Positions 22,228 to 38,646 of a stretch of DNA of 64,000 nucleotides are shown here, one piece after another (the first letter of the stretch is position 1; every line of letters begins with the position of its first letter). The position numbers were made by a program, and so were the translations under genes. Source of the DNA: Erysipelotrichaceae bacterium (lineage in GTDB: Bacteria; Bacillota_I; Bacilli_A; RFN20; CAG-826); NCBI GenBank assembly GCA_015058945.1, contig SVBF01000014.1:1-64000 (forward strand). The letters run 5' to 3'. A model generated the notes under the pieces. It was not told where the DNA came from. It searched no databases and saw nothing but the letters and a program-made list of their open reading frames with translations.

Positions 22228-24729
22228 TTACTTCGCAAAGCCGCTGCCGCCGACCTTCGTGCCGTTAAGGACGTAGACGCGGAGGTTGCCTTGTCCAGAG
22301 GCGCTCGCGGAGAAGGAGGTGCCGTTCTTCACGTCGCCAGTGACGAGGTCGACCCACTTGCCGTTAGGAAGACCAGAGAAGGAGGCGGAACCGCTCATGA
22401 CGACGCAGGCGATGGAGTCGATGCCACCCGCGGTGTAGCGGCGGACGAAGGCTTTGTTGCCGACGGAGGCGTATTGGCCCATCTGCAAGGCCGGGACCTG
22501 GAGACGGATCTTGTTGAGCATCTGGATGTGCTTGGATAAGGGGGTCTCCAACGTCTCTTTGACTTTGCCAGTGGCGTTCTTCGGACTACCGAAGGAGGAG
22601 GCGGTGACGTTGCCTTCGAGGTAATCGCCAAAGTAGGCGCGGCCACTTTCGGCGAGGGCGATGTTCGGGCCTTCGTCGATCTTCTTGCCGGCGCTAAGGC
22701 GAACCTCGGTGCCGTAATACATGCAGGGGATGCCGCGGAAGGTGAACATGAGGTTCATCTTCTCCGCCCATTCGGCTTCGGAGTATTCCGGCCTCATGCC
22801 GTCTTGGGGCTCGGGGGCGTAGTCGTGGGAGTCGACGTAGACGACGTTATAAGTCGCGTCGTTGAAGTGGCCGTCATCGCTTACGGCGTCGCGGTAGGCT
22901 TTGTCGATGTCGCCGAAGCTGCGGTGCATGCGGAAGTCGATGACGGAATTGCCGGACCACTGCGAATGGTCGGGGGCGTGGTAGGAATAGCCGCTGCCGA
23001 GGTAGGCGTTCCTCGTGGTCCTGGTGTCGCTATTTCCTTCCTTGTAGTCTTCGTAGTTCTTTTCCGCGGAGGCGTAGTTGGTCTCCTTGTCGCCCCAGGC
23101 ATAGGTCTTCTCTTCCTTCCAGGTGTAGAAGGAGGGGGAGAGGGCGGGGATGCCGTGGTTATAGAGTTCGGTGACGCGGGCGCAAACCTCGCCGAACATG
23201 AAGAAATAGTCGTCGCCGCGGCAACGCTTCGCGTATTCGTGAAGTGCCGGGAAGAAGTACTTGTTCAAAGTGAGGCGGTTGATGTGCTTCATCGTGTCGA
23301 TGCGGAAGGCGTCGACGCCCATGCGGATGAACTTGCCATAGGAATCCACGAGGTATTCCGCGACGCGGGGGTTCTCGGTGTTGAGGTCGACGCAGTCGCC
23401 GGCGATCTGGGCGACTTGCTCGCCCTGGGTCTCCCAGGAGAAGTTGCCGTAATGGTGATAGATGCCGTCGGGGTCGCCGTCGGCGGACTTCATGGTCTCG
23501 ATGCGGGCGTTATATTGGGCGCCGCCGTTCATGACCGCGTAGTTCGGAAACTTCTTGTAGAGCGGGCCGTTGAGGTTGAGCTGCATCTCGGCCATCATGT
23601 CGTCCGGGTCTTGGGTCGTGTCCTTGATGAACATCGGGAAGAGGGTCTCGTCGCCGAAGTTGCCGGTGTGGTTGAAGACGACGTCGAGGACGATCTTCAT
23701 GTCGCGCTTATGGGCTTCGTTGATGACGGTCTGGAAATCGACGTCCTCGCTCATGTTGCGGGTATCGACCTGCTGGAAGTTCAGCGAGTGGTAGCCGTGG
23801 TAGTCGTAGCCGGAGGCGTTGGAGACGATCGGGGTGATCCAGATGGCGGTGAAGCCCATCGCCTTGATGTAGTCCATCTTCTCGATGAGGCCTTTGAAGT
23901 CGCCGCGCCAGGCGGGGTCGCTCGCGGGGTTGTTCTTGTTGTCCCAGCATTCGGCGTCGTTATCCGGGTCGCCGTTATAGAAGCGACTCGTGATGGCGAA
24001 ATAGATGGATTCCTGGCGGAAATCTTTGCGGGAACCTTTGTATTTGTTGACGGTCTTCCAATAGGAAGCGGGGTATTCGTTCCAGAATTTGAACTTGGTG
24101 TAGTCGGAGGCGTTATCGACGCCACCGGCATAGGAGCCTGGGCCCTCGACCGTGCGCACTTCGGTGGAAGGGGCTTTGCCGCCGCCGGGATTGGGCATGG
24201 TGGCGGATTGAACGAAACCTTCACCTTTGGTGTACCAGTAGTAGCCGGCGCCGTTAACGACGTCTGTTAAGTCGGGGGTCTGGCCACCGTTGCCATTGAA
24301 GATGACGTTGAATTTGGTGATCTGGGGCGAGGTGAAGCGGTAGGAGTACCAATTGTCGTCGAAGCTATCCATCGCGTCTCCCGGCCAAGCCTTGGTGAGG
24401 ACTTGCGATGCGCTCACCCAAGCGTAGACGTTGGAGTAGCCGGTGTTCTTCGCGCAGAGGAGGACGATGTCGTTGGTCGCCGGCATCTCGGTGCCAGACC
24501 ATTCCTCGGAACTGGTCTTCTTCGAGCTGCTCGAGGAGCCGCCTTTGGACGAGGAGGACTCGCCGGGGAGGGCGGATGTATCAATCGGTTGGATCTCCGA
24601 AGAGCTTTCGCCGGGAGTGGAACCGCCACCAATGATGGAACTTAGGGTAGAGGATGTGGCCGTTCCGCAGGAACAGAGGAGTCCGGCCAAAGAAAGGGTT
24701 AGTAGGGCTTTAATCTGCGATTTTTTCAT
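22228..24729 (-). CDS. GH13 alpha-amylase lipoprotein with N-terminal starch-binding module
   Basis: An 833-aa protein. Lipobox LLCSC (Cys about residue 21), then a Ser-rich linker to about residue 78. Residues 85-175 form a CBM25/26-like starch-binding module (NVYAWV, AWPGDAM, WYSYRF, VIFNGNGGQTPDL). The GH13 barrel follows: DVVFNHTG, FRIDTMKH with the nucleophile Asp near 473, FMFGEV with the acid/base Glu near 511, and VDSHD with the third Asp near 633. A C-terminal beta domain ends the protein. It is a cell-surface alpha-amylase that opens starch outside the cell. It has no operon partner; uptake and debranching genes are not nearby. Confidence 0.92.
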   Translation of the reverse strand: MKKSQIKALLTLSLAGLLCSCGTATSSTLSSIIGGGSTPGESSSEIQPIDTSALPGESSSSKGGSSSSSKKTSSEEWSGTEMPATNDIVLLCAKNTGYSNVYAWVSASQVLTKAWPGDAMDSFDDNWYSYRFTSPQITKFNVIFNGNGGQTPDLTDVVNGAGYYWYTKGEGFVQSATMPNPGGGKAPSTEVRTVEGPGSYAGGVDNASDYTKFKFWNEYPASYWKTVNKYKGSRKDFRQESIYFAITSRFYNGDPDNDAECWDNKNNPASDPAWRGDFKGLIEKMDYIKAMGFTAIWITPIVSNASGYDYHGYHSLNFQQVDTRNMSEDVDFQTVINEAHKRDMKIVLDVVFNHTGNFGDETLFPMFIKDTTQDPDDMMAEMQLNLNGPLYKKFPNYAVMNGGAQYNARIETMKSADGDPDGIYHHYGNFSWETQGEQVAQIAGDCVDLNTENPRVAEYLVDSYGKFIRMGVDAFRIDTMKHINRLTLNKYFFPALHEYAKRCRGDDYFFMFGEVCARVTELYNHGIPALSPSFYTWKEEKTYAWGDKETNYASAEKNYEDYKEGNSDTRTTRNAYLGSGYSYHAPDHSQWSGNSVIDFRMHRSFGDIDKAYRDAVSDDGHFNDATYNVVYVDSHDYAPEPQDGMRPEYSEAEWAEKMNLMFTFRGIPCMYYGTEVRLSAGKKIDEGPNIALAESGRAYFGDYLEGNVTASSFGSPKNATGKVKETLETPLSKHIQMLNKIRLQVPALQMGQYASVGNKAFVRRYTAGGIDSIACVVMSGSASFSGLPNGKWVDLVTGDVKNGTSFSASASGQGNLRVYVLNGTKVGGSGFAK

Positions 24730-25109: not shown

Positions 25110-25130
25110 CCGACACATCGGCATGTAGCC

Positions 25131-25151
25131 CACGCGTTGCGTGCCTTTTTT
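25131..25151 (+). terminator. Terminator before the NRPS operon
   Basis: CACGC (25131-25135), loop GTT, GCGTG (25139-25143), CC, then six T. It isolates the NRPS operon from upstream transcription. Confidence 0.65.
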
Positions 25152-25201: not shown

Positions 25202-28200
25202 ATGAAAGAACGTTTTGCCCCGATTACGCCCGAAGAGCTTGGCATTTATCTGTCGTGCCAGACTCCGACTCTTGCCTATAACCTTCCTTTACTGATTCCC
25301 CTAGGAAAGAAGGCCGACGGCGCTTTGGTCAAAAAAGCGTTGGAGGAAATCTTGGCCGCGCACCCTGCGTTAAACGTCCGCTTTTCCTTAAACCAAGGCG
25401 ACATCGTGAAGTCGATCGTTCCCACCCCGTTAGCCTATGAGGAAAAGAAAGTCGGCGCCTTCGATAAAGAGGCGTTGGTCCGTCCCTTCGCCTTATTGGA
25501 TTCCCCGTTATACCGCACCGAGCTCATCCATGCGGAGGATGGCGATTATCTCTTCGCCGACTTCCATCACATCATCATGGACGGCTTCTCCCTCACGATG
25601 TTCCTTCGTGAGTTCGCGGACGCCTTAGGAGGCAAAAAACCCGAGGCGGAATCCTTCGATAGCCTCGATGACGCGATGAACAAGAAGGCCAAGCGCGAAG
25701 ACGAGGCTTCCTTCTTTGCGGACAAAGCCTATTTCCAAAACCTTTTCGGCGCGATCGACGTCGACTCTTCCTTAACCCTAGACAAACAAGACCCCGAACC
25801 GAGCTATGCCAAGATTCGCGTCGAACTAAAAGAGCTTAAGGACAAGGACGTCGCCGCCTCGTTATCCAAATATGGTGTCCGTCGTTCCTCGTTCTTCCTC
25901 GGCGCCTTCGCGTTGGCCTTGGGTCAGGCGACCTTCCTTGACGAAGCCTTCTTCCTCACCGTTAATAACGGCCGCGAGGAAAGGGCCAAACGTTCCTATG
26001 GGATGTACGTCAAGACAATCCCGATGTACGTGAATGGCCTAGCGGAGGGCAAGATCTCCGCCTTCCTCAAAGGCGTGGACGAACAACAACGCGATTCCAT
26101 CGCCCATTCGGCCTATTCCTATTCCGATTTGGTCGCGGATTGCTCCGTCTCCTCGGAGATGCTCTTCTCTTATCAAGGCGACTATTACTACCATCTGCCG
26201 TTGCTTGGCAAAGATACCGACGTCGAGGTCATCAAGACCAAAGACGGCAAAGAGAAACTCGCGGTCGAGTTATTCCGTCGCGACGGCGCTTTCTTCGCCG
26301 ACGTGGAATACCGCAGCGACCTCTATGAAGAAGACACGGTCCGTTCCTTCCTTCACCGCCTCGAGCATTTTGCCTTGAACCTCGCGAAGAAAGAGAACCT
26401 CGAGGACATCGACCCCTGCGATGAGGAAGACCGTCGCATCGTCTCTTCCTTCAACGACAAAGATTTATCCGGCTACGACCTCGACCACGATTTCGTCGAC
26501 GATATCCGCGCCCACATCGCCGCTAATCCGGAGAAAGAGGCGGTGATTTGTGGTAACGACCGCATCACCTATGGCGAACTTGGAAAGCTATCCGACGCCC
26601 TCGCGGATTATCTCCTCTCCTTCGGCGTAAAGAAGGACGAGGTGGTTTCAATCCTCATCGGCCGTTCCGTCTACATGGCCATCGCCCCCTTAGGCGTGCT
26701 TAAGTCCGGCGCGGCCTATCAGCCCCTCGACCCGAATTATCCCGACGAGCGCCTCGCCTTCATGATGGAGGACGCCTCGGCGAAACTTCTCATCTGCGAA
26801 CGCGGCTTGGAGGCGCGCGTCCCTTCTTACCATGGGCCGATCCTCTTCACGGACGAGATTCCGGGGCTGCCGCATCTCGGATTAGAGCAGCCCAAACCGG
26901 ACGGTCATGACCTTTACATCATGCTTTATACCTCCGGCTCCACCGGCAAGCCCAAAGGCGTCCAGCTCGAGCGTCATAACATCTCCGCTTTCGTGCAATG
27001 GCAAAGGAAATTCTACGAAATCGACGCAGATTCCCGCTTCTTTGCCTATGCATCCTTCGGCTTCGACGCGAACATGTTCGACCTTTATGGCGCGTTGACC
27101 AACGGCTTGCCTCTCTACGTCATCGACGAAGAGATGCGCCTCGATTTGAAACGCCTCAACGAATATTACGAGAAAAACGGGTTGACCCATGGCCTCATGA
27201 CCACGCAGGTCGGTCGTCAGTTCGTGGAAGATTACGAGAACCATAGCCTCCGTTACCTCACCGTCGGCGGCGAGAAACTCGTCCCCGTGGCCCCGCCGAA
27301 GAACTATCGTCTCATCAACGGCTATGGCCCGACCGAATGCACGATCGTCATCACCTGCTTCAGGGTGGAGAAGGACTATTACCGCGTCCCCATCGGACAA
27401 GGCTTCCCCATCAACCACCTCTATGTCCTCGACAAGAAGATGCGCCCTCTTCCCTATGGGGTGCCTGGCTTTCTCTATTGCGCGGGCCCTCAGGTCGCCC
27501 GTGGCTATCTCAACCGTCCCGAGGAGAACAAAAAGGCGTTTTTGGAGAACCCCTTCGAAGGCGGTCTCTTCCAAAAGATGTATTTCACCGGCGACGTGGT
27601 CCGCTTCCTCAAAGACGGCACGGTCGACTTCATCGGCCGTAAGGACGGCCAGGTCAAGATCCGTGGCTTCCGCATCGAGATGAGCGAAGTCGAACGCGTC
27701 ATTCGCGACTTTCCGTCAGTGAAAGACGCGACCGTGAACGCCTACCCTGCCTCTAGCGGCGGTTCGTTCCTCGTCGGTTACGTCGTCGCGGACGAGAAAC
27801 TCGACCTCGACGCGATCAAGGCCTTCATCGGCGAACGCAAACCCTATTACATGATCCCCGAGGTCATGATGCAGATCGACAAGATCCCCCTCAACCAAAA
27901 CAGCAAAGTCAATAAGCGCGCCCTCCCTCTTCCTAAACGCGACGAGAAGGAAGTGGTGCCTCCCGCGAACGAGACGGAGGCCAACTTGCTCAAGGTGGCC
28001 CAGAAAGTCCTCGGCTATGATGACGTCAGCGTCACCCTCGACCTCTTCGAAGCCGGACTCACCTCCATCTCCTCCATCAAGTTCATGACCCTCGCCTCCG
28101 AGGTGCTCGGCATCGACCTATCGACCTCGACCTTGAAGGAGAACGCCACGATCCGTGCCCTTGTCGCTATGTCCGGCGAGAAGGAAGAGGCGGTGGACGA

Positions 28201-31200
28201 AGACCGCTCCGACTATCCGTTAACGATGACCCAGAAGGGCATCTACGTCGAATGCGTGAGTCATCCTTCCTCCACGGTCTATAACATCCCCTTGCTCTAT
28301 CGCCTCGACCCCAAAGTCGATCTTGGCCGCTTAGTCGAAGCGGTGAAAGAGGCCATCGACGCGCATCCCTATCTCAAGGGCCATTTGATGATCGATGGTA
28401 GCGGCGACCCGCGCATGGTGCCTTGCCGTGAGGACAAGGCGAACGTCGAAGTGGTGGACCTCGCCTTGCCCGAGCCCTTCACCTTAAGGCCCTACGATTT
28501 GATGAAGGGGCCCTTCTATCAAGCCCGTATTTATCGCGCGAAGGACGCGAATTATCTCTTCCTCGACACCCACCACCTCGCAAGCGACGGCACCTCCCTC
28601 GCCGCGATGCTCGAGGACATCGAGGCTGCTTACCAAGGCCAGCCGATCCCCGCGGAAAAGCGCGACGGTTTTGCCGTGGCTTTGCTCGAGGAGAAAGAAG
28701 CGACTAAGGAAGCCAAAGAAAAGCAGAAGGCCTATTACGCCTCCTTCCTCGATGGCGTCGACTGCGTCTCCTTGCCGCGCAAGGAATACGATTTGCCTAA
28801 GGAGGAAAAGCCCCTTGAGGCGGACCATGACCTCCGCGTCGACAAAGCCAAAGTCCATGCCTTCCTTAAGGCAAACGGGTTGAACCTCAACGGCTTCTTC
28901 ACCTCGGTCTTCGCGATGGCCTTGGCCAAATGGGACGGCAACGAGGACGCCTTGTTCACCTCCATTTATTCCGGACGTGACTCGTCCTTCACCGCCCGCA
29001 CGATGACCATGATGGTCAAGACGTTGCCGGTCTATGCGAAGATCGATCCGAAGGCGAAGGCGGTCGATTACGTCCGCGCGCTTTCGGAGCAGCTATACAA
29101 GAGCCAGTCCAACACCCTATATTCCTTCGCCGAGATCAGCCGTGACTTCGGCGTGAAAAGCGACGTCATGTTCGCCTATCAGGGCGACGGCTTCTTGCCC
29201 GACCATATCGGCGGCTACCCCGCGACGCTCATCCACCTTAATGGGGATGAAGTGAAGGCCCCCTTCTCCGTCGATTGCCTCGAAGGGGAAAAGGCGTTCC
29301 GTTTGCATTTCGAATACCCGTCCAACCTCTACCGCGAGGAGACGATGGTCTATTTCACCCGCCTCTTCGACAAAATCGCGATGGGATTGATCGATAACCG
29401 CGCCTTAGGCGAAATCGAGCTCATCGATGGTCTGACCGCGAAGGAGATGGACGTCTTTAACCAAACCGACCACCCGTTGTCCAAAGGCACCTATCTCGAC
29501 CTCTTTGAGGAAGAAGTCCGTAAGCATCCGGATAAACCGGCCATCGTCGGCATCGACGAGACGCTTTCCTATCGCGAGATGGATCGCCGTATGAACCAAG
29601 TCGCGAACGCCTTGGCCAAACTCGGCTTAGGCAAAGACGACAAAGTGGTCGTCATGGTCCCGCGCATCGCCAATGCCTACGTCGCTAGGGAAGGCGTGAT
29701 GCGTTCCGGTGCCTGCTTCGTCCCGGTCGACCCCGCCTATCCCGATGAGCGCGTCCTCTATATCAGTGAGGATTCTGAGGCGAAGGCGATCTTGTGCACC
29801 AAAGAGATCTATGAGCAGCGCAAGGCAACCTTCGGTGAGAAGCGCTTCCTCCTATTGGAAGACATCCTCGCGCAGGAAAGCGACGCGCCGTTTAAGGCGA
29901 AGATCGATGGCGACGCCTTGGCCTATTGCATCTACACCTCCGGCTCCACCGGCAAGCCCAAGGGCGTCATGATCGAGCACCATAGCTTGCTCAACCTCGT
30001 CTACAAATCCCCCAAGAACTACATCGCCGAGGAATACGCGGACATCTGCTCCGTGACGGCGTCTTTGGCCTCGCTTAGCTTCGACCTTTCCATTCAGGAG
30101 GAGTTCGTCCCGTTCGCCAACGGCATGACCACCATGGTCGCGAGCGAGGATGAGATCCTCAACCCCGTCATGCTCGCCAAGCGCATGAAGCAAAACAAGG
30201 TCGACATCATCACCACGACCCCCTCCTACGTGAATAACGTCCTCGACATTGAGGAAGTTATGGACGCCTTCCGCGATCTGAAGGTGCTCGACCTCGGCGC
30301 CGAAGCCTTACCCGCCTCGATGATCCAGAAGATGCGCGAGAAGGGCATGAATTGCTTCATCCAAAACGGCTATGGTCCCACGGAGGCGACCGTCTCCTGC
30401 ACCATGGACCGCGTCACGAGCGACCGCATCACCATCGGCTTTCCCGACGCGAACTTCAAGACCTACATCATCGACGCGGAACGTCATCGCCTGCCCTTTG
30501 GGGCGATCGGCGAGCTCCTCATCGGCGGCGAAGGCGTCGCCAGGGGCTACATCCACCGCGACGATTTGAACAAGGACAAGTTCATCGACTTCGAGGGTGT
30601 CTATTCGTATCGCTCTGGCGACCTCGCCCGCATCAATTACGACGGGCGCATCGAGTTCTTCGGCCGTAAGGACAACCAGGTCAAACTGCGCGGCTTACGC
30701 GTCGAACTCGACGAAATCGAGAACAATTTGCAGTCTTTTCCGGGCATTTCCCGCGCGGTCGTGGTTGTGAAGGAAACCAAGGAAGAAGGTCAGTTCTTGG
30801 TGGGTTACTACCTCTCCAAAGAGGAATTCCCCGCCTCCGCGATCAAGGAGCATCTGGCCAAGACTTTGACCCCATATATGATCCCGAAGGTGCTCATGCA
30901 TCTCGATTCCATCCCCATGACCAATAACGGCAAGGTCAACAAGAAGGCCTTGCCTGACCCCGTCCTCACCTCAAAGGAAGGGAAGAAGAAAGTCCGCCTG
31001 CCCCGTAACGAGACACAGCAGATCATCTTCGACATCTTCCGTCACGTCCTCGGCGTCGAGGAGCTTTCCATCGACGACGACTTCTTTGACCTCGGCGGCA
31101 CTTCCCTTAGCGCCTCCAAGGTCACGATGCTCGCGATGGGCAAAGGACTCAACATCTCTTATTCGGACGTCTTCGATAACCCGACCGTCATCGACTTGGC

Positions 31201-32425
31201 TTCTTTGGCTTTGAACCAAAGCCGTCCCGCCGAAGCGAAGGTCGAAATCGAGGAGACTTCCCCCAAGGGACTGGAACATAACGTTGTCTCGGAAGTCGAC
31301 GGCATCACCGAAGGCCTAACGACCTTTCATTCCATCTTGCTCACCGGCGCGACCGGCTTCCTTGGCACGCATATTCTCCACGAACTCTTGGAGCATAGCG
31401 AGGCCAAGGTCATCGCCTTGGTCCGCGGCGGCAAGGGCATCAGTGGGGCCGAGCGTCTTCGTGGCTTGCTCGAATACTATTTCGATAACCCCTACGAGGA
31501 GGAGATGGGTCAGCGCGTGCGCGTCATCGAATCCGACGTCACGAGCCCTAGCCTCGTCGAGGAACTCAAGGACGAGGACTTTGACCTCATCGTCAACTGC
31601 GCCGCGGTGGTGAAGCATTTCTCCAATAGCGACGCGATCGAGAAGGTGAATCTCGGCGGGGTGAAGAACCTCATCGAAGTCGCCTTGAAGCACGGTTCCC
31701 GCCTGGTTCAGGTCTCCACCCTTTCCGTCGCCGGCGAAAACGTCGACGGCAAGTTCCCCGCGGAGAAGCGCATCCACGAGAACGAGATTTATTTCGGGCA
31801 AGACGTGTCCAACAAATACATCAATTCCAAGATCAAGGCCGAGGAGGCGTTAATCGAAGCGGTCAACGAGCGTGGCTTAGACGGCAAAATCGTCCGCGTC
31901 GGCAACCTCATGGGCCGCGCGAGGGATGGCGAATTCCAGGTCAACTCCTCCACGAACAACTTCATGGCCACGATCCGCGCCTACAAGATGCTCGGCGTCT
32001 TCCCCGTCTCGGCGGCGGATGGCACGATCGACTTCTCGCCGATCGACGAGGTCGCGAAGACCATCTTGATCCTCGCCCGCACCTCGAAGAAGTACACCAT
32101 CTTCCACAGCGCGAACTCCCACGAGGTCGAACTCGGCGACGTCATCGCCGCGATGAACGGCTACGGCTATGCCATCGAGATGGTCGACGACGACACCTTC
32201 ATGAAGCGTCTAAACGCCTATATGGAGGACGAGAGCAAGCAGATGGACGTCTCCTGCCTCATCTCCTATAACTCCTCCGACGCGGTGAAGCGCGAATACA
32301 TCCTCTCGGACAACACCTTCACGATCAAGGCCCTCTATCGCCTCGGCTACAAGTGGCCGATCACCGACGAGAAATACCTCGACCGTTCGATCTTGTCCCT
32401 CTCGACCCTTGGCTTCTTTGAGTGA
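25202..32425 (+). CDS. Dimodular non-ribosomal peptide synthetase with terminal reductase (C-A-T-C-A-T-R)
   Basis: A 2407-aa synthetase. C1: HHIIMDG at 122-128, intact. A1: YTSGSTGKPKG near 576-586, INGYGPTE motif. T1: GLTSIS with phosphopantetheine Ser955. C2: HHLASDG at 1124-1130, intact. A2: YTSGSTGKPKG near 1578, NGYGPTE. T2: GGTSL with Ser1968. R: NAD(P)-binding GATGFLG at 2049-2055, and catalytic Tyr2206/Lys2210 in YINSK. The starter C domain suggests N-acylation of the first residue. Reductive release gives a dipeptide aldehyde, which can cyclise to a pyrazinone. By hand alignment the pocket residues read about DAFLLVGIV (A1) and DLQTDGGVS (A2): both keep Asp235, and A1 looks hydrophobic. 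No phosphopantetheinyl transferase is in the window. Confidence 0.95.
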   Translation: MKERFAPITPEELGIYLSCQTPTLAYNLPLLIPLGKKADGALVKKALEEILAAHPALNVRFSLNQGDIVKSIVPTPLAYEEKKVGAFDKEALVRPFALLDSPLYRTELIHAEDGDYLFADFHHIIMDGFSLTMFLREFADALGGKKPEAESFDSLDDAMNKKAKREDEASFFADKAYFQNLFGAIDVDSSLTLDKQDPEPSYAKIRVELKELKDKDVAASLSKYGVRRSSFFLGAFALALGQATFLDEAFFLTVNNGREERAKRSYGMYVKTIPMYVNGLAEGKISAFLKGVDEQQRDSIAHSAYSYSDLVADCSVSSEMLFSYQGDYYYHLPLLGKDTDVEVIKTKDGKEKLAVELFRRDGAFFADVEYRSDLYEEDTVRSFLHRLEHFALNLAKKENLEDIDPCDEEDRRIVSSFNDKDLSGYDLDHDFVDDIRAHIAANPEKEAVICGNDRITYGELGKLSDALADYLLSFGVKKDEVVSILIGRSVYMAIAPLGVLKSGAAYQPLDPNYPDERLAFMMEDASAKLLICERGLEARVPSYHGPILFTDEIPGLPHLGLEQPKPDGHDLYIMLYTSGSTGKPKGVQLERHNISAFVQWQRKFYEIDADSRFFAYASFGFDANMFDLYGALTNGLPLYVIDEEMRLDLKRLNEYYEKNGLTHGLMTTQVGRQFVEDYENHSLRYLTVGGEKLVPVAPPKNYRLINGYGPTECTIVITCFRVEKDYYRVPIGQGFPINHLYVLDKKMRPLPYGVPGFLYCAGPQVARGYLNRPEENKKAFLENPFEGGLFQKMYFTGDVVRFLKDGTVDFIGRKDGQVKIRGFRIEMSEVERVIRDFPSVKDATVNAYPASSGGSFLVGYVVADEKLDLDAIKAFIGERKPYYMIPEVMMQIDKIPLNQNSKVNKRALPLPKRDEKEVVPPANETEANLLKVAQKVLGYDDVSVTLDLFEAGLTSISSIKFMTLASEVLGIDLSTSTLKENATIRALVAMSGEKEEAVDEDRSDYPLTMTQKGIYVECVSHPSSTVYNIPLLYRLDPKVDLGRLVEAVKEAIDAHPYLKGHLMIDGSGDPRMVPCREDKANVEVVDLALPEPFTLRPYDLMKGPFYQARIYRAKDANYLFLDTHHLASDGTSLAAMLEDIEAAYQGQPIPAEKRDGFAVALLEEKEATKEAKEKQKAYYASFLDGVDCVSLPRKEYDLPKEEKPLEADHDLRVDKAKVHAFLKANGLNLNGFFTSVFAMALAKWDGNEDALFTSIYSGRDSSFTARTMTMMVKTLPVYAKIDPKAKAVDYVRALSEQLYKSQSNTLYSFAEISRDFGVKSDVMFAYQGDGFLPDHIGGYPATLIHLNGDEVKAPFSVDCLEGEKAFRLHFEYPSNLYREETMVYFTRLFDKIAMGLIDNRALGEIELIDGLTAKEMDVFNQTDHPLSKGTYLDLFEEEVRKHPDKPAIVGIDETLSYREMDRRMNQVANALAKLGLGKDDKVVVMVPRIANAYVAREGVMRSGACFVPVDPAYPDERVLYISEDSEAKAILCTKEIYEQRKATFGEKRFLLLEDILAQESDAPFKAKIDGDALAYCIYTSGSTGKPKGVMIEHHSLLNLVYKSPKNYIAEEYADICSVTASLASLSFDLSIQEEFVPFANGMTTMVASEDEILNPVMLAKRMKQNKVDIITTTPSYVNNVLDIEEVMDAFRDLKVLDLGAEALPASMIQKMREKGMNCFIQNGYGPTEATVSCTMDRVTSDRITIGFPDANFKTYIIDAERHRLPFGAIGELLIGGEGVARGYIHRDDLNKDKFIDFEGVYSYRSGDLARINYDGRIEFFGRKDNQVKLRGLRVELDEIENNLQSFPGISRAVVVVKETKEEGQFLVGYYLSKEEFPASAIKEHLAKTLTPYMIPKVLMHLDSIPMTNNGKVNKKALPDPVLTSKEGKKKVRLPRNETQQIIFDIFRHVLGVEELSIDDDFFDLGGTSLSASKVTMLAMGKGLNISYSDVFDNPTVIDLASLALNQSRPAEAKVEIEETSPKGLEHNVVSEVDGITEGLTTFHSILLTGATGFLGTHILHELLEHSEAKVIALVRGGKGISGAERLRGLLEYYFDNPYEEEMGQRVRVIESDVTSPSLVEELKDEDFDLIVNCAAVVKHFSNSDAIEKVNLGGVKNLIEVALKHGSRLVQVSTLSVAGENVDGKFPAEKRIHENEIYFGQDVSNKYINSKIKAEEALIEAVNERGLDGKIVRVGNLMGRARDGEFQVNSSTNNFMATIRAYKMLGVFPVSAADGTIDFSPIDEVAKTILILARTSKKYTIFHSANSHEVELGDVIAAMNGYGYAIEMVDDDTFMKRLNAYMEDESKQMDVSCLISYNSSDAVKREYILSDNTFTIKALYRLGYKWPITDEKYLDRSILSLSTLGFFE

Positions 32426-32433
32426 GGTGAACC

Positions 32434-34236
32434 ATGAAAATCACGTATACCCGTAACGACAGAATCATCCGTCGCAAGTTCTACCAATACCTCATCCCGA
32501 CGGTGTTGATGGTTTTGGCGATGCAATTCGGTTCGCTCGCCGACTCGATCGTGGTCGGTCAGTTCTTGGGCGACCAAGCCCTCACCGCCTCCTCCCTCGC
32601 CTTGCCCGTCGTCTTCTTGGTCCAAATCCCCGCGATGATGATCGGGGGCGGTTCGGCGATCGTCGGGGCGAACTTACTCGGCAAACGCCTCGTCGACGAC
32701 GCCTCGAAGGTCTTCAAGTTATCGCTCTTCCTCGCCTTTACGATGAGTTTGGTGTTCGTGCCGCTTGGCATCTTCCTCTCCGAGCCCGTCGCGCGACTCT
32801 TCGCCGGCAATTTCCCCGACCTCATCCCGATGGTCTACCAATACATGCTCATCTACGCCTGCCAATCGCCAATCATCGCGGTGGGCATCGTGGTGGCGTA
32901 TTTCCTCCCTTCAGACAATAGCCCGAACCTCGGCGCCGCCTTCTTTGTCATTGGCAACGTCGTTCATTTGGCCTTCGAGATCATGCTCTGCCTCATCCTC
33001 GACCCGAGCGTCGCGATGTATGGCGCAGCCGCGAGCACGGGCATCGGCATGATCGCCGGCATGGTCGTCTTGATTCCCTATGCGCGTTCGAAGCGTCGCA
33101 TGGTCAATTTCAAGACGCCGCTACAGGGTGGGTTCCACTTCACGAAGGATTTGCTCCGTGCCGGGAGCGCGACGGGGGCGCAGACTGCGTTGCTGGCTTT
33201 ATTCACCGTGGTCTTGAACCTTGCCGCGACGGCTTATCTCACCGAGGCCGAGCTGCCGGTATATGCGATGCTGACGAATTTCTCGTTCGTGATCGATCTC
33301 TTCCTCCTGGGCATCTTGCAGATCATGCCTTCCGTCGTCTCCTCGCTTTATGGCGAGAAGGACTATTTCGGCGTGAAGTCGATCTGCCGTCGCGTGTTCA
33401 CTTTGGCGATGATCGTGACCGCCTTGCTGACGGCCATATCGATCATCTATCCCCAACTCTTCTTCTTCATCTTTGGCGTGAACCTCGATAGCGCGAAAGG
33501 CGGGGCGAACGATCCGTTGCTCGTCATTCGCACCTATTGTGTCAGTTTCCTCTTCTACGCGGTCAACAAATATTTTGTCTTCTATTACCCCTCCATCATG
33601 GTCAATGCGCCGGCGGTTGTCTCCAACGTCGTCCGCATCGGCCTAGCGGGACCTTTATCCGCCTACTTGCTCATGATGAGCCTTGGCGTCATCGGCTATG
33701 CCTACTCCGCCATCATCATGGAGGTCGTCGCGATTGTCGGTGCGTTCCTTGCGGTCTTCATCGGCAAAAAGACCAAGAAACTATCCGGTAACGGAATCCT
33801 GTTGCTGCCGAAAGAAGAGAAAGTCGCCGGTTACTTGGATATCTCCATCCCCGCCGAGAAGGCGGAAATCTCAAAAGTGGTGGAGGAATTGCAGGATTAT
33901 GCGGAGAAAAACTCTGGCGACAAGAAGGCCGCGGCCATGCTCGCTTTGGCCACGGAGGAAGTCCTCGACAACACGATAGCCTATGGTTACCGTCATAAGA
34001 TCGGGGCGCGTTACATCGACATCAACCTCACCACCAAGGAGGATGCCTTGCTCGTCCACATCCGCGACGACGGGCTCAACTTCGATCCGACCTCATTTGT
34101 GGCAAGCGACGACGAGGAGATGCGCTTCCACGGCATCGAGGTCGTGCGCAAGGTCGCGAGCGAATTCCGCTACTTGCGCGTTCTGAACATGAACAACACA
34201 ATTATGGAGATCACTACTTCAAAACGAGGAGCATAG
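32434..34236 (+). CDS. MATE-family exporter fused to an RsbW-like ATPase domain
   Basis: A 600-aa protein eight bases behind the NRPS, led by GAGGTG. Residues 1-445 are a twelve-helix MATE transporter (LADSIVVGQFLGDQALTA near the start, GGGSAIVGANLLG), a family that exports small molecules against Na+ or H+. Residues 460-600 are a GHKL/HATPase domain of the anti-sigma kinase type: N-box EEVLDNTIAYGY with the Mg-binding Asn near 512, and G1 box IRDDGLNFDP near 541-550. The fusion would place a Ser/Thr protein kinase or anti-sigma-like switch on the cytoplasmic face of the exporter. The STAS and phosphatase genes that follow are its natural partners. Confidence 0.92.
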   Translation: MKITYTRNDRIIRRKFYQYLIPTVLMVLAMQFGSLADSIVVGQFLGDQALTASSLALPVVFLVQIPAMMIGGGSAIVGANLLGKRLVDDASKVFKLSLFLAFTMSLVFVPLGIFLSEPVARLFAGNFPDLIPMVYQYMLIYACQSPIIAVGIVVAYFLPSDNSPNLGAAFFVIGNVVHLAFEIMLCLILDPSVAMYGAAASTGIGMIAGMVVLIPYARSKRRMVNFKTPLQGGFHFTKDLLRAGSATGAQTALLALFTVVLNLAATAYLTEAELPVYAMLTNFSFVIDLFLLGILQIMPSVVSSLYGEKDYFGVKSICRRVFTLAMIVTALLTAISIIYPQLFFFIFGVNLDSAKGGANDPLLVIRTYCVSFLFYAVNKYFVFYYPSIMVNAPAVVSNVVRIGLAGPLSAYLLMMSLGVIGYAYSAIIMEVVAIVGAFLAVFIGKKTKKLSGNGILLLPKEEKVAGYLDISIPAEKAEISKVVEELQDYAEKNSGDKKAAAMLALATEEVLDNTIAYGYRHKIGARYIDINLTTKEDALLVHIRDDGLNFDPTSFVASDDEEMRFHGIEVVRKVASEFRYLRVLNMNNTIMEITTSKRGA

Positions 34237-34240
34237 ACAT

Positions 34241-34534
34241 ATGGAAATCGTCAAAAACAAAGAAGGCGCGACCCTCTTGGTCGCCTTGAAGGGAAGGCTC
34301 GACACCAACACCTCCCCGGAACTCGAGGCCTCTTTGGAGAAAGAGGAGGGCTTCACCGATGTCCGCTTCGACTTCGGTCAGCTCGAATACCTTTCCTCCT
34401 CCGGCCTCCGTTTGCTCTTCTCCTGCCGTAAGAAACTCGGTGGCGCCGAACACGTCATCGTCGAAAACGCGAATGAGGTAGTGCGAGAGATCTTCCGCGT
34501 CACGGGATTCGATCGCCAGATCACCCTGAAATGA
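34241..34534 (+). CDS. STAS-domain protein (RsbV/SpoIIAA-like antagonist)
   Basis: A 97-aa single STAS domain. The conserved loop LEYLSSSGLRLL (Ser52-54) carries the Ser normally phosphorylated by an RsbW-type kinase and dephosphorylated by an RsbU-type phosphatase. GAGGAG precedes ATG. It lies four bases after the MATE-ATPase fusion, and its stop overlaps the next start (ATGA). In partner switching the unphosphorylated form binds the kinase domain, here the one attached to the transporter. Confidence 0.92.
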   Translation: MEIVKNKEGATLLVALKGRLDTNTSPELEASLEKEEGFTDVRFDFGQLEYLSSSGLRLLFSCRKKLGGAEHVIVENANEVVREIFRVTGFDRQITLK

Positions 34535-36585
34535 AAAAGAACCGACGCGTCAGCTTATCGATTGCGATTCTCGTCCCGACCATTCTGGCTTTCGTTTTAA
34601 GCCTTGGCGGGATTTACGCCGGCGCGTATTTCGTCTTGCAGGACGCGGCCTTCCAAATCGCCAGGGACGACGACGTCAAGGATTTAGTGACCGTCGATTC
34701 GCTTTATAGCGATGGCAATTACGGCCTGCTTGGCTATAGCCTCACCCCGATTTCTAAGGCGTATGAGGAAAACAAACCCGCCGCTCCCCTCACCCCCGGC
34801 AGCCCCGAGGAACGCGCCTACCGTACCCTCATCCAGACCGCGGCGTCTTCCTATTTGGCGAGCTCGACCTCGCGCATCTTGGAACGCTACGCCACGACCT
34901 TCATGGGCATTTTCTATGAGGACATGGCGGCCAACCGCATGGTTTTGGTCTGCTCTTCCAACAACGTAATCGACCCTTCGGAGCAGACTTCCCTCTACCT
35001 CGGTTCGTTCTTTGAGCGCAACGAATGGTTCGACGGGGATTCGTTCTATGGGGAGACCATCGTCGACAAAACCCTTGGGCGCATGTTCACTAGCGGCATC
35101 TTCCTCTGCGACGTCGCCCATCCGACTCTGGGCGGCCCGACTTACCGTTATTGGCTGATCCGCGAGACGAGCGAAAAAGATGTTTATTCCGCGACACCTG
35201 CGTTCACACGCTTGTTTGCCATCGTCGCGAGTGCGACGCTCGTCGTCTTAAGCGTCATCGCGTTCTTGCTTTTGTTCTTCCTGGTCATCCGTCCGACCAA
35301 GCGCCTTTCCGCTTCGGCGGGAGCTTATGTCGCCTCGGTTCAATCCGGCGTATTGGAAAGCAAGTTCGAACTATCGACGAGGCGTACCCGTAACGAGCTC
35401 ACCGAACTCAACGATTCCTTCTATTTCGCCCAAGAGGCCATCGCCGTCTATTCGGAGGAGATCCGTTCCTCCACGGCCTACAAGGAAAGGGTGAACGCCG
35501 AACTCGCCTTAGCGGAGCGCATCCAGGCCTCGATGGTGCCTTCCGAACCCTTATTCGGCGACGATTTCGAGATTCGTGGCCACATGCAGCCCGCGAAGGA
35601 AGTCGGCGGTGACCTCTATAACTATTTCCGCGTCGACGAGGACCATGTCGCCTTCTTCATCGGCGACGTTTCGGGCAAGGGCGTCCCCGCGGCCCTCTTC
35701 ATGGCGAAGACCAGCGCCGCATTGCGCCTTGGCCTAAAGGACCTCGACATCGATAACGTGAATAACTTCCTCTGTCAGAACAACGTCGAGAACTTCTTCG
35801 TCACTGCCTTCTTGGCCCTCCTTAACGTCAAGACGGGCGAGATGCGTTACGTCAACTGCGGCCACGAGCCGGTCTTCTATTACCATAACGGCGTCTATTC
35901 CGCCTTGCCCGAGAAGCCGAACTTCATGCTCGGCTGCCTCGATGATTTCAATTACGCCGCGGAAACCATCCGTCTCAAACCCGGCGACCGTCTCTTCCTC
36001 TATACCGACGGCATTTCCGAGGCGATGAACGAAGCGGGCGAACTCTATGGCAAAGAGCGCATCTTGGCCTGTTTGAACGCCCACGGTGGTTTGCCTAGCG
36101 GCGAAATCTTCCGCGCGATCGCAGAGGATGTCCGCCGCTTCGTCGGCAACGCCGAGCAAAGCGACGACGAATGCATGGTCGCGATGGATTTCGCTAGGGA
36201 GAAGGAATTGACCTTCTCCGCGGACCGGGAAGGGCTAGCCAATGTCCCTCCATTCGTGGACGCGTTCCTCGAGGGCAAAGGCGAAAGACTGATTTCGGAG
36301 CTGCAAATCGTCTTGGATGAACTCTGCTCCAACGCGGTCTTCTATTCGGACTCCGGCGATAAGCCCATTACGTTGATCTTACGCGACGACAAAGACGCGA
36401 TTCATTGCACCCTCATCGACCAAGGCACCCCCTTTAACCCGTTGACCGACAAACCGGAGAAGAAGGATGAGGACCAGCCCGGCGGCTTAGGCATCATCAC
36501 GGCGCTTGCGCTAACCGACGACATCTCCTATGAACGCCTCGATGACCGCAACGTCCTCTCCCTCGTCAAAAAGATCAAGTCCTAA
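34531..36585 (+). CDS. Membrane SpoIIE/RsbU-type Ser phosphatase with C-terminal ATPase domain
   Basis: A 684-aa protein. TM1 at residues 8-30, an extracytoplasmic sensor domain of about 200 residues, TM2 at about 228-252, and a HAMP-like linker with coiled coil to 330. A PP2C/SpoIIE domain follows at 340-548: GGDLYNY near 358, GDVSGKGVPAALF near 379, YTDGISEAMN near 490, and SDDECMVAM near 543 supply the metal-binding Asp residues. Residues 555-684 are an HATPase: N-box DELCSNAV, G1 IDQGTPFNP, G2 GGLGI. A phosphatase that also has a kinase-type ATPase domain could both set and reset the STAS protein. The outer domain is the presumed signal input. Confidence 0.9.
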   Translation: MKKNRRVSLSIAILVPTILAFVLSLGGIYAGAYFVLQDAAFQIARDDDVKDLVTVDSLYSDGNYGLLGYSLTPISKAYEENKPAAPLTPGSPEERAYRTLIQTAASSYLASSTSRILERYATTFMGIFYEDMAANRMVLVCSSNNVIDPSEQTSLYLGSFFERNEWFDGDSFYGETIVDKTLGRMFTSGIFLCDVAHPTLGGPTYRYWLIRETSEKDVYSATPAFTRLFAIVASATLVVLSVIAFLLLFFLVIRPTKRLSASAGAYVASVQSGVLESKFELSTRRTRNELTELNDSFYFAQEAIAVYSEEIRSSTAYKERVNAELALAERIQASMVPSEPLFGDDFEIRGHMQPAKEVGGDLYNYFRVDEDHVAFFIGDVSGKGVPAALFMAKTSAALRLGLKDLDIDNVNNFLCQNNVENFFVTAFLALLNVKTGEMRYVNCGHEPVFYYHNGVYSALPEKPNFMLGCLDDFNYAAETIRLKPGDRLFLYTDGISEAMNEAGELYGKERILACLNAHGGLPSGEIFRAIAEDVRRFVGNAEQSDDECMVAMDFAREKELTFSADREGLANVPPFVDAFLEGKGERLISELQIVLDELCSNAVFYSDSGDKPITLILRDDKDAIHCTLIDQGTPFNPLTDKPEKKDEDQPGGLGIITALALTDDISYERLDDRNVLSLVKKIKS

Positions 36586-36594
36586 GAAATCGTT

Positions 36595-38121
36595 ATGAAA
36601 AACCATTTGACCCTTACCTTACTCTGCGGCGCACTTCTTGCTTCCTGCGGCGCGCCGAGCGTTTCGTCATCCTCGGAAACCAATTCGTCCGAATCTCTTT
36701 CTAGCGAAGGAACGTCCTCCGTTGCCTCGTCTAGCTCTAGTTCAAAACCTGCCGAGACTTCCTCAAAGCCTGCGGAATCCAGCAACCTCAATCCTTCCTC
36801 GGAGGAAAGTTCGATTCCCTCGCGACAAGAACTCGATCCCATGGGCGAACCGATGGTTGGACGTCAGTATTACCTGAACCATATCGGCGACGTTTACGGC
36901 GCCTGGCAAAAATACCGGGGGCGTGGCATTACGATCGCCGTCATCGACGTTGGATTCAATCCGGACCATGAGGATTTCTTCTACGCCGACGGGACGAGCA
37001 AAGTGTCCGACAAATCGGCCTCTTTCGTCACCACCGGAACTAAGACGTCGACGCTCATTGGGAAAGACAAGGTCGTCAACATGGGCGAATCCCATGGCAC
37101 GTTTTGCGCGGGCGTCGCGGCTGCGGCGGCCAATGGCAAAGGTGTGACCGGCGTCGCGCCGGAAGCGGGGCTATTGCTCCTAAAGACTGATCTCAAGCCT
37201 AGATCCATCGCCCAGGCGTTCCGTTACGCCGCGGATAATGGGGCCAGGGTCATAACCATCTCCATCGGTTCTTATTACACCTATGGCGGGGACTTAATTG
37301 ACGATGGCTCCGATTTAGGCACCGTGTTCAACGCGCCGGTCAAATACGCTTACGACAAAGGCGTCGCCGTGATCTCCGCGGGAGGCAACGGTGGGCTCGA
37401 TGGAATGCCGACGGAATACACGTTCCCCGGCTGCGTCGATCATGTCATCGGCGTGGGTGGGCTCGCCGCGAATAGTTCGACCGAGATCTGGACCGGCTCT
37501 TCATACAACTCCTCTTCGAAATTCCAATCCATCGACGTCTTCGCCCCGGCGGACATGATGTATGGCTGCTGCCATTACGATGGCAAGAAATACGATGGGG
37601 GATGGAACGGGACTTCCTTCGCTTCGCCCACCGTGGCGGGCATGGCCGCGCTGTATTTCGAGGCGTTCCCCACGAAGAAGGCCGCCGACTTCGAAAAGGC
37701 TTTGTTCGGCTCTTGCCATAAGATAACCACCTCATCCATCGCGACTGCAGATCAGCTTGGTTATGGACGCGTGGACGTCGGCAAATTGCTTTCCCTCTCT
37801 TCTTCCGGCAACGTCACCGCGAAGATCAAAGCGAATTGGAGTTCTGGCTATGCCTATGTTTGGAATTCGGTCACGGGCAACTCTTTGTCCGCGTGGCCAG
37901 GCAAGGCGTTGACCAAGTCCGGAAGCGTGTTCTCAGTGACAATCGATTCGGGCAAATACGATTCGGTCATCTTCACCCAAACAAAAGATGGGCCTCAAAC
38001 CGTTGACCTTTCAGTGAATAGCTTCCTCACCGGGAAGACATTGGATTTGACGTCGGCGGCGAAAGAGTGCAACGCCTTGGTCGGGGCATATAATGCTAAC
38101 GGGTCTTTAACTTTTGTGTGA
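36595..38121 (+). CDS. Subtilisin-like (S8) protease lipoprotein with starch-binding-like C-terminus
   Basis: A 508-aa protein. Lipobox LLASC (Cys about residue 19), a Ser-rich linker to about residue 75, then a subtilase domain: AVIDVGFNPDHEDFF (Asp about 118), GESHGTFCAGVAA (His about 167), oxyanion SAGGNGG near 263, and NGTSFASPTVAGMAALYF (Ser about 341). All three catalytic residues are present. The last ~105 residues (AYVWN, AWPGKALT, VIFTQTKDGPQTVDL) resemble the CBM26-like module of the amylase at 22228-24729. It follows the phosphatase gene by ten bases without a visible terminator, so it may be part of or regulated with the NRPS operon. Confidence 0.88.
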   Translation: MKNHLTLTLLCGALLASCGAPSVSSSSETNSSESLSSEGTSSVASSSSSSKPAETSSKPAESSNLNPSSEESSIPSRQELDPMGEPMVGRQYYLNHIGDVYGAWQKYRGRGITIAVIDVGFNPDHEDFFYADGTSKVSDKSASFVTTGTKTSTLIGKDKVVNMGESHGTFCAGVAAAAANGKGVTGVAPEAGLLLLKTDLKPRSIAQAFRYAADNGARVITISIGSYYTYGGDLIDDGSDLGTVFNAPVKYAYDKGVAVISAGGNGGLDGMPTEYTFPGCVDHVIGVGGLAANSSTEIWTGSSYNSSSKFQSIDVFAPADMMYGCCHYDGKKYDGGWNGTSFASPTVAGMAALYFEAFPTKKAADFEKALFGSCHKITTSSIATADQLGYGRVDVGKLLSLSSSGNVTAKIKANWSSGYAYVWNSVTGNSLSAWPGKALTKSGSVFSVTIDSGKYDSVIFTQTKDGPQTVDLSVNSFLTGKTLDLTSAAKECNALVGAYNANGSLTFV

Positions 38122-38646
38122 ATGGATATCGAAAAAGCGCTGAAGAAGGCGATTAGAAGCGGCGACAAAGAGGAAACGCGTCGCCAGTTTGAACGTTTTT
38201 ATCAGGAAAACGTGAAGCTGGTGTATCGAGTATTGATTGACCGTTTCGGAAAAGTAGACGGCATCGATGACGACGTTCAAGAATCTTTCGTCGTTTTGAT
38301 GGGCTCTCCGGAACAACTCCTTGCCGTTGACCGCCTTCAGGACTACCTAATCACCACGGCGAAGCGCATTGCGCAAAGACGGATCTATGGGTTAAAAGTT
38401 TCTACCGAGGAAGTCGAGAATATTCCCGCGCCCGAACTCTTGATCCCGTCAGCGATTTCCGAGGCCGATTTTTTCCATCGCATGGAGCAAAGCCTCGGCC
38501 ATCCGGATTATGAGATCGTCGTCCTTCGCTTTGCCTATGGCTTTACGGAGAAAGAAATATCAAAGAGACTAGGAATAGGCGAAGACGCGGTGCATTACCG
38601 TTGCAAAAAAGGGATGGCGAAATTGCGAAAGGAGATTTCTCGATGA
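38122..38646 (+). CDS. ECF-type sigma-70 family factor
   Basis: A 174-aa protein. Region 2 is diverged: FERFYQENVKLVYRVLIDRF followed by VDGIDDDVQESFVVLM. Region 4 HTH is clear at residues 130-165: YEIVVLRFAYGFTEKEISKRLGIGEDAVHYRCKKGMAKLR. It begins directly after the stop of the protease gene with no Shine-Dalgarno and overlaps the next gene by ATGA. It is the classical two-gene pattern of an ECF sigma factor with its membrane anti-sigma factor. Its target promoters are not evident. Confidence 0.85.
   Translation: MDIEKALKKAIRSGDKEETRRQFERFYQENVKLVYRVLIDRFGKVDGIDDDVQESFVVLMGSPEQLLAVDRLQDYLITTAKRIAQRRIYGLKVSTEEVENIPAPELLIPSAISEADFFHRMEQSLGHPDYEIVVLRFAYGFTEKEISKRLGIGEDAVHYRCKKGMAKLRKEISR

Follow-up and report, generated by a model that had tools for sequence, protein, structure and literature searches.

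In a 64,000-nucleotide stretch of contig SVBF01000014.1 from an Erysipelotrichaceae bacterium, which probably lives in the rumen (positions 1 to 64,000, here called the window), four genes lie tightly packed on the + strand at 25202-36585, with intergenic distances of 8, 4 and -4 nt, and according to Pfam they encode a non-ribosomal peptide synthetase (NRPS), a MATE exporter that ends in an RsbW-like HATPase domain, a small STAS protein and a membrane phosphatase of the PP2C (SpoIIE) type. We give somewhat better than an even chance to the reading that partner switching controls the exporter itself, with docking of the STAS protein on the exporter HATPase gating export. In the mechanism suggested by this gene content the membrane phosphatase would sense an external cue and, with a HATPase of its own, would determine the phosphorylation state of Ser53 in the STAS protein. 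In a manner that depends on this state, the STAS protein would then dock on the exporter's presumably cytoplasmic HATPase, and docking may either open or close export of what is presumably the NRPS product. It is the exporter that we infer to be the output of the switch. An earlier, sequence-only reading of the same stretch had placed the same four genes at these positions, with which Pfam agrees, but it overlooked a second HATPase_c_2 domain that is carried by the phosphatase.

Domains and switch residues

The exporter (600 amino acids (aa), 32434..34236, + strand as for all features of the unit) matches MatE (PF01554) at 82.2 bits in two stretches, and its C-terminal domain (aa 472-587, 33847..34194) matches HATPase_c_2 at 45.4 bits against a cut-off of 27.4. 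Its AlphaFold2 model has a predicted local distance difference test score (pLDDT) of 77.7 and a predicted template modelling score (pTM) of 0.70, and the top Foldseek matches of the model are MATE structures such as 6fhz and 5c6n; because the 50 listed matches are all of the MATE/MOP fold, the evidence for the fold of the HATPase domain is its Pfam match and the predicted secondary structure. A search of PDB sequences with this domain gave weak matches to VraS and to a designed protein only. The exporter HATPase is conserved to the same degree as the MATE part, with mean identities of 0.64 (genus) and 0.36 (others) against 0.65 and 0.34. A chance fusion or an assembly artefact can be rejected, as the fusion is found in 13 genomes of the genus (the window's own included, some in fragments) and also in other genera and another class.

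The motifs of the HATPase domains were aligned with a SpoIIAB-like protein of a relative (genome G572), the gene for which adjoins a SigB/F/G-type gene. Across 13 exporters the residues E508, E509, N513, D545, D546, G547, F550, D551, P552, G567 and N587-T589 are invariant, and the exporter domain has both the Glu/Asn of the RsbW/SpoIIAB N-box (E509/N513) and the G1 Asp-x-Gly (D545/G547). Its G2 box is down to G567, and the complete G2 box of an RsbW/SpoIIAB kinase is not found. The N-box, G1 and the serine of the STAS protein, which the sequence-only reading listed among the switch residues, are present, but it missed the shortening of the exporter G2 box.

The STAS protein (97 aa, 34241..34534) is a single domain that matches PF01740 at 49.2 bits, with a mean identity of 0.70 within the genus and 0.42 to others. 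S52, S53 and G55 are invariant in 11 of 11 aligned rows, and when a profile built from nine STAS proteins is matched to SpoIIAA structures S53 falls in the phospho-serine column, the residue of which in SpoIIAA we take to be Ser58. Ser53 (codon 34397..34399) is thus the candidate phospho-acceptor, which narrows the Ser52-54 first proposed as the switch to a single residue.

The phosphatase (684 aa, 34531..36585) matches SpoIIE (PF07228) at 155.8 bits, its PP2C domain covering aa 369-554 (35635..36192), and this is followed at aa 562-680 (36214..36570) by the second HATPase_c_2 domain at 61.5 bits, a score above the 45.4 bits of the exporter domain, so the operon holds two RsbW-type domains. 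In its AlphaFold2 model (pLDDT 72.9, pTM 0.53) the best Foldseek match is 3ke6, the RsbU and RsbW domains of Rv1364c, followed by the phosphatases RssB, SiaA and SpoIIE and, lower, by SpoIIAB and RsbW; a PDB sequence search with the HATPase domain gave no match. Upstream of the PP2C domain lies a fast-evolving sensor region that is probably extracytoplasmic (about aa 34-225, 34630..35205), for which no Pfam match was found in the window and which has a mean identity of 0.39 in the genus and 0.14 to others, with 0.45 and 0.21 for the HATPase and 0.63 and 0.36 for the PP2C domain of the same protein.

Judged by its sequence this protein may combine the kinase and the phosphatase of the switch. 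Its HATPase in the window keeps the N-box, G1 and G2 in the alignment with the SpoIIAB-like protein, but the G1 Asp is replaced by Ser or Asn at four loci of relatives (L048, L052, L053 and L054) where the exporter HATPase keeps its Asp. The motif alignment speaks against both HATPases being equally canonical kinases, and either may be the kinase, the HATPase of the phosphatase, with all motifs in the window, or that of the exporter, which retains the G1 Asp where the former has lost it.

The NRPS (2407 aa, 25202..32425) has the order C-A-T-C-A-T-Reductase, with Pfam stretches for two Condensation, two AMP-binding and two PP-binding domains followed by NAD_binding_4, and HHxxxDG is present in both condensation domains (aa 122 and 1124). 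Two modules with a terminal reductase form the architecture of dipeptide-aldehyde NRPSs, and the product is probably an (N-acyl) dipeptide aldehyde. It is in these features that the NRPS resembles AusA and the dipeptide-aldehyde NRPSs of the gut (aureusimine, ruminopeptin), and the top NCBIfam match is indeed the AusA model NF047350 at 1089.8 bits, but this lies under the AusA cut-off of 2500 and there is an extra N-terminal C domain, which AusA presumably lacks. Ruminopeptin and gut dipeptide aldehydes are treated in passages of PMC12327764.

Linkage among relatives and the sigma-factor question

The linkage on which the sequence-only reading had staked its proposal holds beyond the genus, with the complete unit in the order NRPS, MATE-HATPase, STAS and PP2C-HATPase present at 11 loci in at least four genera. 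These are the window, L018 (G027), L020 (G002), L021 (G030), L022 (G024), L024 (G016), L048 (labelled Clostridia), L052 (G137), L053 (G119), L054 (G431) and L086 (G676), the NRPS being incomplete in L022, L048 and L053, where the contig ends within it. The genera are that of the window, two more (g29 and g94) and one or more from the class to which L048's genome belongs, a class taken as distinct from that of the window on the strength of its Clostridia label and of there being no genomes common to the searches. In L028 (G005) the stretch starts inside the MATE gene with the remainder of the unit present, and in L026, L027 and L049 the contig stops at or just past the exporter. The named relatives are labelled Bacilli, Erysipelotrichaceae, Bacillales and Clostridia, and goat rumen (L040, L043 and L047) and water-deer abomasum (L041) are among the sources.

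The unit is also found split, and in opposite ways. G003 and G012 have the NRPS and exporter only at one locus (L019 and L023), with STAS and PP2C-HATPase elsewhere (L075, L074), and a separate HATPase and PP2C lie upstream in L019; in G017 STAS and PP2C-HATPase come after the NRPS (L073) and it is the exporter that lies elsewhere without an NRPS (L025). G023 resembles G017, in fragments at contig ends only, L077 carrying a divided NRPS, STAS and the beginning of the gene behind it, and L029 the final 159 exporter residues. The reductase end of the NRPS is the part in two pieces in L077 (2-3826), through a sequence error or because the gene is broken. Opposite splits in which all parts are kept argue for a working unit.

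Co-occurrence points the same way. Among 61 related genomes 12 have both the exporter (at least 160 bits, 13 genomes) and the STAS ortholog (at least 150 bits, 12 genomes), one has the exporter only, none the STAS ortholog only and 48 neither, with Fisher test values of 7e-12 for the 61 genomes and 9e-8 for the 31 of the genus, which overstate the co-occurrence because kinship is ignored. The line drawn for STAS orthologs, at least 150 versus at most 121 bits, was set after viewing the ranked list, and the STAS profile (A5) includes rows of G003, G012 and G011, which it also finds; with a profile made without these rows the three score 124, 118 and 129 bits, and three paralogs of the genus 72-84.

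Domains of the RsbW/SpoIIAB type classically bind sigma factors, and one or both HATPases might then hold a sigma factor or another regulator encoded elsewhere in the genome, the fusion serving only to anchor the kinase to the membrane. One candidate is at hand, as the gene for an ECF-like (extracytoplasmic function) sigma factor (38122-38646, TIGR02937 50.4 bits) begins 1.5 kb after that of the phosphatase, but no relative of it was found in the 17 or the 9 loci scanned (partly of the same genomes). The search for SigB/F/G factors used the cut-off of TIGR02980, with B. subtilis above the cut-off as control, and covered 18 carriers outside class B (see below), namely G000, the genome of the window, which is 92% complete, and 17 more. 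Neither G000 nor 16 of the 17 others have a SigB/F/G factor above the cut-off, and three carriers that are 59-74% complete (G027, G018 and G023) show no sigma match at all in this test; a 137.8-bit match in G000 is most readily taken as a housekeeping sigma factor, and so are those that 12 of the 17 show at 130-142 bits. The exception is G572, with two SigB/F/G factors, one of which adjoins STAS and SpoIIAB-like genes in the manner of a spoIIA operon. A sigma-B-like partner is rejected on this result for 17 of the 18 carriers, and we regard a transcriptional output of the unit as improbable. The sigma feature having been tested for and not found, the unit is not classed as an RsbW-sigma system. 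The earlier statement that the operon has no sigma-B-like factor is borne out for the four genes, and the sigma factor that had been allowed for as the real partner of the HATPase did not appear as a SigB/F/G factor above the cut-off in 17 of the 18 carriers.

The wider MATE-HATPase family

Full-length fusions are present in at least 4 of 395 genomes of the window's class, its own included, and in the class to which L048's genome belongs, 391 genomes of which were searched, there are 20 full-length fusion loci, from at least 18 genomes among the matches listed; both counts are lower bounds because at most three candidates were scored per genome. STAS or PP2C is encoded nearby in 12 of these 20 loci (PP2C in 10, STAS in 9) as against none of 20 plain MATE loci (Fisher 4.5e-5), and in 11 of 19 if L048, known beforehand as a quartet, is left out. 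All 20 full-length fusion rows were used, with L082-L085 and L091/L092 being near-copies, and the controls were chosen from plain rows of 142-163 profile bits, L147 and L148 being short. When the fusion loci are divided by group, STAS or PP2C is nearby in 10 of the 12 class B loci, which have no NRPS-domain match, and in 2 of the 8 NRPS-linked loci. As 10 of the 12 fusion loci associated with STAS or PP2C are thus without an NRPS, the switch goes with the exporter, and the circuit first drawn for an NRPS-exporter operon is not confined to NRPS clusters. It is conceivable, at a little short of an even chance, that partner switching, so far linked with sigma factors and a small number of other targets, directly gates a class of MATE exporters of Bacilli and Clostridia through the kinase-type domain that they contain, and that a branch of this class exports reductase-released NRPS peptides.

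There are, however, observations that weigh against gating of the exporter by STAS docking. Compared with the SpoIIAB-like protein, 10 of the 11 aligned exporter rows have a G2 box short by two residues, and that of the eleventh (L096) is ungapped but lacks its first Gly, whilst in L088 the fusion is kept and the N-box Asn is lost. G018 (59% complete) has the exporter without a STAS ortholog, and STAS relatives of intermediate score occur in two genomes that do not have this exporter, G025 (121 bits) and G010 (102 bits). Of the 8 NRPS-linked fusions in the class of L048's genome 6, four of them near-copies, are without a local STAS or PP2C, and in G913, which has an intact NRPS and MATE-HATPase, no A3-like STAS was found at E 1e-8. 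STAS proteins of 94-96 bits are found elsewhere in the genomes G811, G769, G847 and G678.

The short G2 box, the fusions without STAS nearby and the case of G913 would also suit an exporter HATPase that only senses ATP or dimerises, with the STAS protein and phosphatase serving another target and sharing the location as parts of a co-inherited cluster. Clusters are inherited as units, and co-occurrence therefore overstates dependence. Yet STAS or PP2C recurs near MATE-HATPase genes where there is no NRPS and was not seen beside the 20 plain MATEs, and split clusters keep all their parts, which leaves this the least probable of the explanations considered.

In a tree of 57 MATE parts, of the quick type and with long branches, the 20 class A fusions fall on one side of a branch with a support of 72 (99 for the 19 that are starred). 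The plain MATEs stand apart and class B falls into three sets; one or several fusion events are possible. Of the short-tailed MATEs (frames of 549-587 aa, of which 4 of 6 rows were taken in) only L097 is included in the tree. L097, L116 and L117 are NRPS-linked MATEs with a vestigial HATPase, having neither the N-box Asn nor the G1 Asp, and there is no STAS or PP2C in the stretch, an absence that speaks for the exporter-gating reading; L118 is a MATE with a worn tail and no NRPS match.

Among the proteins encoded near the class B fusions are GNATs, a GH3 enzyme and STAS-APH-HATPase fusions. STAS fused to an APH-like kinase occurs in L031 (5376-6548), L093 (6817-8025) and L095 (11701-13308, with a HATPase in addition). 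L090 (5625-10541), L091 and L092 hold a MATE-HATPase, a PP2C, a free HATPase and two further genes, one GNAT-like and the other weakly so in L090, with no NRPS or STAS match in the stretch, and represent a different switch-exporter cluster. The tail of a distant MATE in L030 (1427-3172; G036) is HATPase-like but degenerate. This MATE, from a different genus within the family, adjoins a gene that by eye resembles a PAS-cyclase and is placed with class B in the tree.

Other gene sets also bring together partner-switching and transport genes. In G000 a C39-peptidase ABC exporter, a further ABC exporter, STAS, PP2C-HATPase, a response regulator and a radical SAM/SPASM protein are encoded together (L008, 6391-15214), and a PP2C-HATPase gene has a PTS_EIIC_2 transporter gene on one side and an MscS channel gene on the other (L007, 7321-11468). 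The sets in L007 and L008 would fit a habit of the lineage of wiring partner switches to transport, although this is not proof of one. In L009 (5136-8426) a free-standing HATPase_c_2 gene overlaps BioY, with genes for a tyrosine-phosphatase and a plain MATE near.

The unit itself is flanked by genes for two CBM26 (starch-binding) proteins, an alpha-amylase (22228-24729) and a subtilase lipoprotein (36595-38121), the ECF-like sigma gene following directly after the latter and being overlapped by a gene for a 222-aa protein without a Pfam match, possibly an anti-sigma factor. Both subtilase and ECF-like sigma factor were rejected as members of the unit, the sigma factor for its lack of relatives in the scanned loci and the subtilase because its sole relative there is a 17-bit N-terminal match in L031. 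Directly 5' of the NRPS gene a terminator-like hairpin with a T-run (25120..25145, + strand), a consensus match only, may be the 5' limit of the operon; the consensus scan of the region found 21 such sites versus 16.6 expected, and a promoter scan of the region showed no excess (6 found versus 6.1 expected). At the left edge of the window the N- and C-terminal parts of a TraG/VirB4-like P-loop ATPase are in two reading frames (2491-4680 and 4665-5144), this conjugation ATPase being broken or recoded, and the 553-aa protein encoded at 5229-6890 matches ADP-ribosyltransferase weakly (18.2 bits, under the Pfam cut-off).

Known systems and significance

Each component of the unit is known, and the arrangement is a variant of partner switching with a transporter-borne HATPase. 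The closest parallels in parts are RsbU-RsbV-RsbW and SpoIIE-SpoIIAA-SpoIIAB of Bacillus, with which it shares the PP2C phosphatase, the STAS phospho-serine column and HATPase_c_2, but here one HATPase sits on a transporter and the other on the phosphatase, and no SigB/F/G factor lies above the cut-off in 17 of the 18 carriers covered. Rv1364c of Mycobacterium tuberculosis, which supplies the top fold match of the phosphatase, likewise has PP2C followed by an RsbW domain and presumably carries its STAS domain too, whereas here STAS is a separate gene and a further HATPase is found on the exporter. On the side of the exporter there is ClbM of the colibactin pathway, a MATE that reportedly stands beside an NRPS-PKS (polyketide synthase) pathway; it is alike in its MATE fold (Foldseek match 4z3n), but with a chain of 431 residues it would have no room for a C-terminal HATPase.

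Other partner-switching systems share a part of the proposed mechanism. In SypE-SypA of Vibrio fischeri one kinase/phosphatase sets STAS phosphorylation, the target protein of SypA being unknown, though SypE has an N-terminal kinase, a REC domain and a C-terminal phosphatase and no exporter fusion is told of in the passages of PMC10120452. In BtrU-BtrV-BtrW of Bordetella partner switching affects type III secretion, so that partner-switch proteins act on a secretion process there as well, but the process is protein secretion and not a small-molecule exporter, and the passages of PMC8256260 tell of no transporter fusion.

Transporter and kinase are joined in one chain in the CbrA/CrbS-type SLC5-STAC histidine kinases which, going by excerpts of the literature on them, have a transporter of a different family and work by histidine kinase and response regulator; the window transporter has no SSF/SLC5 domain, its Pfam match being MatE. 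That such signalling transporter-kinase fusions are known lends some weight to a reverse flow of information, in which the MATE part would sense substrate load or transport state and set its HATPase, which would phosphorylate the STAS protein, and STAS would report export status to the phosphatase-HATPase or to another target. The gene parts and their linkage fit this too, and the invariant N-box and G1 of the 13 exporter rows favour it. This sensor-exporter, or transceptor, is the main rival reading but is nevertheless unlikely, given that no downstream output gene is seen beside the unit, that most carriers covered have no SigB/F/G factor above the cut-off, that the phosphatase has a probable sensor region of its own and that the exporter G2 box is short.

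We return to the reading in which the switch acts on the exporter. The sequence-only reading knew of no described system of this form, and in the titles, abstract starts and passages of the open-licence literature matches listed no MATE-HATPase fusion is described either; HATPase_c_2 is a table entry in the part of PMC10663231 covered, and the word MATE is absent from the passages of PMC9540692.

STAS proteins with unknown targets include, in the passages concerned, SypA (PMC10120452) and RbaV and HmpV (PMC8256260). In the unit described here the fusion marks a candidate STAS target, and a non-transcriptional output of partner switching therefore becomes directly testable. If the exporter is indeed gated in this manner, export of gut NRPS products of the dipeptide-aldehyde type would be under the control of a signal, and the release of a reactive peptide aldehyde would be timed by an external signal after its synthesis. 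The combination of MATE-HATPase with STAS or PP2C is in addition a genome marker by which more such clusters may be found.

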